A stretch of 64,000 nt of DNA from Spisula solida (Eukaryota; Mollusca; Bivalvia; Venerida; Mactridae), in NCBI GenBank assembly GCA_947247005.1, contig OX365957.1:10326817-10390816 (forward strand), written 5' to 3'. How positions within the stretch are numbered: position 1 is the first letter of the stretch; every line of letters starts with the position of its first letter. Below are positions 19,501 through 22,500 of the stretch, piece after piece. The translations under genes were made by a program, and so were the position numbers. The notes under the pieces were generated by a model that saw only the letters and a list, made by a program, of their open reading frames with translations, made no database searches and had not been told where the DNA came from.

Positions 19501-22500
19501 TATTAAGTTTAAAGCAGAATACAAGTACTAACAACGTGTGTGAAGTTTATTCATGTTCGTTTGAGTAAGTGACCGTGATCATTACTATTAAACTTTGGTA
19601 ATCAAAATAACGGACTCGTCTTATGAAAAAGGGGAGGGGCGTGCTTTGCATTGAGTATATATTACAACTGTAAAAATGAATGTGTTTATTTAGAATACCT
19701 CACATCAGATTAGTCCATAGTTAAAAGTACAAAACCGTGCATAACCTAGATAGTTACGAAATAGGGAATATGTACCTATGTTTTATCGTGGCATTAAGCA
19801 CAGTCACAAGTTGGATGAGTAGTAATTAAATCAAAGTGCGTAGCAAAAAGCGATTTAATGAACGCATCCGAGCATGTGAATAAGCTTTATTATATATAAA
19901 CACAGATACATATTCATTAATTCGATTTTAATATAGCCAAGATTCCGCAATTGACAACAAACCAAAACATAGTAACCACGGTACTATTTTCTTCCTCGGA
20001 AGCTTATTTGCAGTTTGAAAGTTATTCAGCCGTAGCTGTGTTTTATCGGAGTTTTAGCACAACTTGGGTGTGTATACAGCTAATAATACTAGTTGTGTTA
20101 TAATTATTTATAAGCTTATATCAAAAGCTTAATCTAACTGTGTTTATTCTTTTGAGTGTGATAGTTACCTGTGATATATACAGATTTAGAGGACAGCTCT
20201 GTTCCATACCGGAATGTGATAATTACCTGTGATATATACAGATTTAGAGGACAGTTCTGTTCCATACCGGAATGTGATAATTACCTGTGATATATACAGA
20301 TTTAGAGGACAGCTCTGTTCCATACCGAAATGTGATAATTACCTGTGATATATACAGATTTAGAGGACAGCTCTGTTCCATACCGGAATGTGATAATTAC
20401 CTGTGATATATACAGATTTAGAGGACAGTTCTGTTCCATACCGGAATGTGATAATTACCTGTGATATATACAGATTTAGAGGACAGCTCTGTTCCATACC
20501 GGAATGTGATAATTACCTGTGATATATACAGATTTAGAGGACAGTTCTGTTCAATACCGGAATGTGATAATTACCTGTGATATATACAGATTTAGAGGAC
20601 AGTTCTGTTCAATACCAGAATGTGATAGTTACCTGTGATATATACAGATTTAGAGGACAGCTCTGTTCCATACCGGAATGTGATAATTACCTGTGATATA
20701 TACAGATTTAGAGGACAGTTCTGTTCCATACCGGAATGTGATAATTACCTGTGATATATACAGATTTAGAGGACAGCTCTGTTACATACGGGAATGTGAT
20801 AATTACCTGTGATATATACAGATTTAGAGGACAGATCTGTTACATACCGGAATGTGATAATTACCTGTGATAAACATGTATACAGATTTAGAGGACAGCT
20901 CTGTTACATACCGGAATGTGATAATTACCTGTGATATATATACATATTTAGAGGACAGTTCTGTTACATACCGGAATGTGATAATTACCTGTGATATATA
21001 CAGATTTAGAGGACAGTTCTGTTCAATACCGGAATGTGATAATTACCTGTGATATATACAGATTTAGAGGACAGTTCTGTTCAATACCAGAATGTGATAG
21101 TTACCTGTGATATATACAGATTTAGAGGACAGCTCTGTTCCATACCGGAATGTGATAATTACCTGTGATATATACAGATTTAGAGGACAGTTCTGTTCCA
21201 TACCGGAATGTGATAATTACCTGTGATATATACAGATTTAGAGGACAGCTCTGTTACATACGGGAATGTGATAATTACCTGTGATATATACAGATTTAGA
21301 GGACAGATCTGTTACATACCGGAATGTGATAATTACCTGTGATAAACATGTATACAGATTTAGAGGACAGCTCTGTTACATACCGGAATGTGATAATTAC
21401 CTGTGATATATATACATATTTAGAGGACAGTTCTGTTACATACCGGAATGTGATAATTACCTGTGATATATACAGATTTAGAGGACAGTTCTGTTCATTA
21501 CCGGAATGTGATAATTACCTGTGATATATACAGATTTAGAGGACAGTTCTGTTCAATACCGGAATGTGATAGTTACCTGTGATATATACAGATTTAGAGG
21601 ACAGTTCTGTTACATACCGGAATGTGATAATTACCTAAGATATATACATATTTAGAGGACAGTTCTGTTACATACCGGAATGTGATAATTACCTGTGATA
21701 TATACAGATTTAGAGGACAGCTCTGTTACATACCGGAATGTGATAATTACCTGTGATATATACAGATTTAGAGGACAGTTCTGTTCCATACCGGAATGTG
21801 ATAATTACCTGAGATATATACAGATTTAGAGGACAGTTCTGTTACATACCGGAATTTGATAATTACCTGTGATATATACAGATTTAGAGGACAGTTCTGT
21901 TACATACCGGAATGTGATAGTTACCTGTGATATATACATATTTAGAGGACAGTTCTGTTCCATACCGGAATGTGATAATTACCTGTGATATATACAGATT
22001 TAGAGGACAGTTCTGTTCCATACCCTCGTATTCTATTACTGATCTTTATTTGTTTGACTTCGCCTGCTGTAATACTAAAACTTTCATCGACCGGAACACT
22101 TGAATATCGAGGTGTTGTCACTTGTACATCCACAACTGTCGTTCTTGCGGTCGTCACAAATACCTCAACATCTAAATTATCATCATAATTTTGCATCCAA
22201 CCAATGATGAATTCTGTACCACGATTATCTGGTGCGCCTGTGTGAATAATATGCTAGTATCATCTATATGTTTGTGACTTAATTGATTTGGTTAATATTA
22301 TCAAGTTTATTATCCTACCATTGCAATATGAGATGTGTAAAAACGCATTACTGTCGAAAACAAACAGGTTTAAAAGCGACTAAAATACGGACTTTCTAAT
22401 GATTTGGAATATGATGTAACAATGGCTACATATAGCAGGAATCAATAATGTAACAATGGCTACATATAGCGGGAATCAATGATGTAACAATGGCTACATA

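Follow-up and report, generated by a model that had tools for sequence, protein, structure and literature searches.

A 58-bp minisatellite at a bivalve exon end repeats a predicted 5′ splice site 32 times, with one copy keeping the reading frame

How a transcript that offers some 32 near-identical 5′ splice sites in a row might be cut at the one that yields protein is the question raised by a tandem array at the second exon of an immune-type gene with an IgGFc-binding domain, in the 64-kb stretch of DNA analysed here (the window). The array (Table 1) has a period of 58, a copy number of 31.9 and 94% matches by Tandem Repeats Finder. Each unit joins the last 42 nt of exon 2 (22024-21983) to ~15 nt of intron 2, and the commonest unit on the minus strand is GGTATGGAACAGAACTGTCCTCTAAATCTGTATATATCACAG|GTAATTATCACATTCC, with the bar at the predicted exon-intron boundary. 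On the minus strand 32 sites of the form AG|GTAA[T/C]TAT were found, spaced by 58 nt in 27 of the 31 intervals and by 60, 64, 60 and 64 nt in the others; the plus strand held none, and the mean expected under an order-1 Markov model of the strand is 0.46 per 64 kb (maximum of 2 in 100 runs). By exact sequence the 32 sites fell into four classes, ACAGGTAATTATC (25/32), ACAGGTAACTATC (5/32), TCAGGTAATTATC (1/32) and TTAGGTAATTATC (1/32); GTAACTATC is present in 5/32 sites, and TCAG and TTAG in 1/32 each. The first-pass annotation of this DNA had described a satellite that carries the 5′ splice site about 32 times, each unit copying the end of exon 2 and the start of intron 2, and both points were borne out by the copy number, the site count and the make-up of the unit. 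Realignment, which that annotation had proposed as a check for broken GT donors, found AG|GT intact in 32 of 32 units. The array end had been misplaced at 22237, where exon 2 begins on the minus strand; positions 22025-22237 are single-copy exon.

Table 1. Positions in the window of the array, its terminal donors and the placed exons of the host gene
Feature	Position	Strand	Basis
58-bp minisatellite, ~32 units, one AG|GT apiece	20157..22024	(-)	Tandem Repeats Finder and site scan
531-bp stretch identical to sequence 472 bp further on	20967..21497	(-)	472-bp identity of units 10-17 to units 18-25
Donor 1, CAG|GTAATTATC, sole frame-keeper of 32	21974..21985	(-)	Splicing to exon 3 in silico
Donor 32, CAG|GTAACTATC, final donor of the array, exon 3 acceptor 745 nt downstream	20160..20171	(-)	Site scan
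Exon 1, 61 nt, start codon and signal-peptide-like sequence	23302..23362	(-)	Signal peptide by eye
Exon 2, 255 nt, ends in donor 1; last 42 nt (22024-21983) are array unit 1	21983..22237	(-)	Frame and protein relatives
Exon 3, 147 nt	19277..19423	(-)	74-77% identity to P0003 and P0004; end weakly matches start of IgGFc_binding profile, 16.2 bits (cut-off 25.6)
Exon 4, 131 nt	16962..17092	(-)	36-38% identity to P0003 and P0004
Exon 5, 275 nt	16288..16562	(-)	IgGFc_binding PF17517, E=1.4e-17, 64.4 bits (cut-off 25.6)

The host gene was placed on the minus strand, where exons 1-5 join in frame and lead into the IgGFc_binding domain. PF17517 scored above its cut-off for exon 5 (64.4 versus 25.6 bits) and for a minus-strand frame with stops read as X (80.4 bits), and below it for the piece made of exons 2 and 3 (16.2 bits) and for the exon 6 piece (25.0 bits). 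The likely sixth exon, with its probable start at 10488, aligns with profile positions 205-284 just below the cut-off; a putative further part of the gene is the F5/8 type C-like segment at 1564-1310. Since five exons join in frame, a Pfam IgGFc_binding match is present and relatives were found, the gene looks real by sequence. The introns flanking exon 2 are 1,064 and 2,559 nt long.

Splicing each of the 32 donors to exon 3 in silico left an open frame for donor 1 and for no other. Donors 2-32 read into the first extra unit, and all 31 reach a stop at one and the same codon, after residue 118 and upstream of the later exon junctions. The expectations that only the exon-adjacent donor keeps the frame, and that reading on brings a stop within the first extra unit, thus held for every donor of the array.

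A profile search gave 27 proteins, 25 of which were aligned with the window (P0028 and P0030 were left out), and the spliced donor-1 frame was aligned with 8 chosen proteins. The donor-1 junction is gap-free against P0016, P0021, P0024 and P0025 (P0016 reads ESKGILVSADDEVVIYG), and thus four relatives support donor 1. P0029 reads ESKAIQIT-GKS at the junction, consistent with an exon that ends at the same codon as donor 1, with G|GTAAG; in P0004 and P0005 the match begins just before ASDEVVVYG, and their exon would start where exon 3 starts. Identity of the exon 2 frame to the aligned relatives is 34-61%. The two labelled relatives come from Mytilus coruscus and Tegillarca granosa, both of them bivalves. 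A search with exon 2 alone (85 aa) returned no match, near relatives being outside its length limit (P0001 has 154 aa).

Among the 27 proteins, 17 reach the junction point and the other 10 end or diverge earlier. Twelve of the 17 (P0001, P0002, P0006-P0011, P0015, P0018, P0019 and P0022) part from the alignment shortly after SKG or a similar triplet (in P0019, a few residues further on), and most of them read, on protein evidence, as if the donor lay ~15 nt further upstream. This early departure suggests that the family may have two positions of intron 2, 15 nt apart. Relative to the intron position in the window (21983-22024) and in P0029, the eleven other than P0019 diverge right after SKG, a pattern at the protein level that could reflect intron sliding.

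Donors and acceptors were scored with splice-site matrices and ranked against the 8,469 GT sites (both strands) and the 6,356 AG sites. Among GT sites the commonest array donor ranks within the top 1.23% and pairs with U1 at -8.1 kcal/mol; for the gene's four other placed donors the ranks run from the top 0.22% to the top 2.27% and the pairing energies from -8.1 to -9.4 kcal/mol. Unit 7 has a weaker donor (top 3.81%, -6.5 kcal/mol). On the gene strand from 23400 to 1300 there are 1,806 GT, array included, and outside the array five of them score at least as high as the commonest array donor, three of these being the donors of exons 1, 3 and 5. As their scores match those of the gene's own placed donors, the array donors are real-looking by sequence. 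At the unit junctions, or close to them, are a further 32 donor-like GT, including 11 CCG|GTATGG and 11 CCG|GTATGT that score 4.3 and 4.7, respectively, versus 4.16 for the main donor on the donor matrix; none of the 32 gives an open frame. One of them, AGG|GTATGG (3.1 versus 4.16), falls within exon 2 itself at the start of unit 1, upstream of donor 1.

The first-pass annotation had asked whether the array tunes splicing or nonsense-mediated decay. None of the 31 aligned units departs from AGGT, but invariance also holds for 46 of the 58 unit positions and for 43% of 4-nt stretches, and the intact AGGT is thus no sign of selection; selection on the donors was considered and found unsupported, since invariance is common across the unit. 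An expression brake, in which a considerable fraction of transcripts would be cut at later donors, meet the early stop and be degraded, so that array length sets gene output, would draw on two of the results above, namely that 31 of the 32 array donors score within the range of the gene's own and that the 31 later donors share one stop ahead of the later exon junctions. The intact AGGT needs no selection to account for it, however, and we regard such a brake as distinctly improbable; a tuning role of the array in splicing or nonsense-mediated decay is not supported.

The candidate answer to how the proximal donor is chosen is exon definition. In excerpts of Carranza et al. (2022; PMC9225289), a human exon-definition minigene with introns of 365 nt and two identical strong donors used the upstream one exclusively, and weakening both donors caused larger exons to be skipped; the limit of exon definition is placed there at flanking introns of ~250 nt, and intron definition prefers the downstream donor. 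Here, the two introns flanking exon 2 and the 745 nt that separate donor 32 from the exon 3 acceptor all exceed ~250 nt, and the rule thus predicts donor 1 over donors 2-32. We infer that the same rule would hold in this animal with 32 donors. Under exon definition, exon 2, with long introns on both sides, would be recognized across the exon, the donor nearest its acceptor would win among equals, and the remaining array would be removed along with intron 2; transcripts cut now and then at a later donor would carry an early stop and are expected to be degraded. A mirage-type minisatellite (that is, one of the class known from lancelets, below) in which donor 1 is chosen via exon definition is the account we favour, and we hold it to be probable.

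Several points count against the exon-definition reading. The human minigenes had two donors, not 32, and exon 2 at 255 nt is barely inside the class of >250 nt in the excerpted part of PMC9225289. The weak donor of unit 7 is a further point. A strict rule that the upstream donor wins would also let AGG|GTATGG of exon 2 compete, and this site must be passed over. As SRSF1 is able, in the excerpts consulted, to favour the intron-proximal donor, and intron definition can likewise prefer a downstream one, the last donor or a random one might be mostly used, with the gene largely silenced or dying. Exons 1-5 are nevertheless open and in frame, the exon 2 frame retains its identity to the aligned relatives and the introns are long, which makes such a loss very improbable. 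Masking of donors 2-32 by RNA structure was also tried and rejected: donor 1 was once the most accessible of the 32, but its rank ranged from 1 to 16 over 15 settings.

Errors of donor choice might alternatively be erased rather than avoided. Units that are both acceptor and donor would undergo multiple rounds of internal splicing, in which the product of donor k is spliced again, this time joining donor 1 to the unit-k AG, and one and the same mRNA results whichever donor was chosen first. By construction, the two-step path yields the donor-1 message for all 31 later donors. The AG of units 1 and 2 ranks in the top 7.3% of AG sites, near the weakest of the gene's placed acceptors (exon 4, 7.5%; the range is 0.2% to 7.5%), and that of unit 12 in the top 2.4%, whereas the other units checked are weaker (unit 11, 10.3%; unit 7, 16.9%). 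Pyrimidine content in five units (0.50-0.62) overlaps that before the gene's five acceptors (0.50-0.81). A strong acceptor at a recursive site has a pyrimidine tract and a branch point; in two units checked, the 45 nt preceding the AG held no yTnAy match, and neither did the sequence before exon 3. A step of 58 nt may moreover be too short for an intron, and at least two units per step would then be needed. Ratchet points are described in an excerpt of PMC8605326 as an acceptor juxtaposed to a donor, and AG|GT is so juxtaposed in 32 of 32 units; unlike recursive splice sites, the acceptors here score middling to weak. Repair by recursive splicing, and with it a self-erasing donor array, is on balance unlikely. 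If it did occur, an exon end could be multiplied almost without limit or cost, and such an array would be a natural intermediate toward new or shifted introns.

At the DNA level, the flanks of the array point to its origin. The 5′ flank of unit 1 is CGAG, while later units mostly have TTCC or a near variant, and beyond unit 32 intron 2 continues as GTAACTATCACACTCAAAAG. Unit 1 is predicted to be the real exon 2 end, and its flank, together with the run-on of the intron after unit 32, indicates a duplication that linked a breakpoint ~15 nt inside the intron with one 42 nt short of the exon end. The initial event would have been a tandem duplication with breakpoints straddling the exon 2/intron 2 boundary, followed by expansion to ~32 units through unequal exchange or slippage, including an 8-unit block copy. 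Units are homogenized (mean pairwise identity 94.3%), and both this and the exact 472-bp block copy fit ordinary minisatellite turnover, in support of the mirage explanation. Identity between units 10-17 and 18-25 could reflect either a recent block duplication or an assembly fault. Inflation of a shorter true array during assembly would be consistent with this block, which is identical over 472 bp within an exact match of 531 bp; however, there are 17 distinct units among 31, and the array would stay long without the block, so that an artefact as the source of the copy number is extremely doubtful.

Known systems, cited from excerpts of the articles, provide a frame for the array. Lancelet ‘mirage' minisatellites lie at exon-intron boundaries and keep AG/GT in many repeats (Ebner et al., 2010; PMC3087553); the data there suggest no interference with regular splicing, lengths vary and a role in intron gain is proposed. 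TnC and PGBD5 are added to the lancelet mirages by PMC3902484. Mirage units measure 10-72 bp in Adh3 and 150-160 bp in the globins BflGb6 and BflGb9, with concerted evolution and length variation (PMC3087553, PMC3902484). BflGb6 has 6 and 3 units in two haplotypes and, unlike the present array, repeats the acceptor side, whereas in BflGb9, with one duplicate, the repeated part is an exon 3′ end, as it is here. What the present array shares with them is an exon-intron boundary copied in tandem in the manner of a minisatellite, with AG/GT in many copies; the differences are that the present host is a bivalve, that there are ~32 copies with donors intact in all of them, and that the array is known from the DNA sequence of one haplotype. 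By the sequence criteria of a mirage, there is a tandem array of minisatellite-size units (58 bp × 31.9, 94% matches), the unit spans a predicted exon-intron boundary (42 nt of exon 2 plus ~15 nt of intron 2), and the splice signals are kept (AG|GT in 32 of 32 repeats). The array is, on these criteria, a phenomenon already known. No mollusc mirage was found among the literature matches listed, whose coverage is partial.

Minisatellites of the IFI6 type have a 12-bp unit, and use of a later unit leaves the frame open. Turri and colleagues reportedly described in 1995 a minisatellite of IFI6 (6-16) that gives multiple splice donors in the interferon-induced transcript. As in that human gene, a minisatellite here places successive 5′ splice sites at the end of an exon, but the 58-bp unit is not a multiple of three and every later donor leads to a stop (31 of 31), so that the open frame of the IFI6 type is absent. 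In IFI6 two downstream repeats act as donors, giving three mRNA species (excerpt of PMC4526556). Tandem duplication of AGGT is also a published model for the source of introns (PMC4974935 and PMC2891723, in part). Such intron gain (the Rogers 1989 model, ATP2A1 and the 24-bp repeats of fission yeast) resembles the present array, so far as the excerpts go, in its copies of AG|GT, removal of which leaves the protein unchanged, but here the intron is pre-existing and its 5′ end alone was multiplied, with no new intron apparent.

The array extends mirages beyond lancelets to a bivalve. With its high copy number, donors intact in 32 of 32 units and an all-or-nothing read-out, it is of use as a natural experiment, not as a new phenomenon: each transcript sets 32 near-identical 5′ splice sites in competition, and the read-out is clean, as the first alone gives protein. 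It can test the proximity rule of exon definition far beyond two donors, and whether AG|GT repeats get re-spliced.

The array is one among several minisatellites of the gene region. Ten arrays were chosen from the Tandem Repeats Finder list for positions 1-23400, with overlapping rows merged and 4464-4864, 6277-6322 and 11159-11188 left out, and together they cover 54% of these positions. With minisatellite growth so common here, an array at an exon edge is unsurprising. The other nine have no AGGT on the gene strand, and none overlaps any of the 11 placed exon edges, so that splice-site arrays as a habit of this gene were rejected; a 51-bp array carries 22 AGGT, on the strand opposite to the gene. 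A 28/44-bp array at 17126-19139 ends 34 nt before the exon 4 acceptor. The likely exon 6 (window 9970-10240, 10488) reaches the edge of a 32/49-bp array, where its donor is not placeable by eye; a second exon end may thus carry an array there.

A 33-bp array (6815-9994, minus strand) lies inside an apparent intron and has a unit of 11 codons that stays open for 852 aa on the gene strand; the open frame is probably a by-product of the period. Two Pfam matches to array translations were judged repeat artefacts, namely PF13609 (porin) in the 33-bp array (53.2 bits; cut-off 27) and PF13024 (DUF3884), above its cut-off in three frames of the 58-bp array. Further along the window, an inverted repeat (50373-51245 and 53240-54106) has arms of ~870 nt that are 98% complementary and ~2 kb apart. 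Neither an ORF within an arm nor another lying between the arms gave a Pfam match, and the structure could be either a fold-back or a mobile element.
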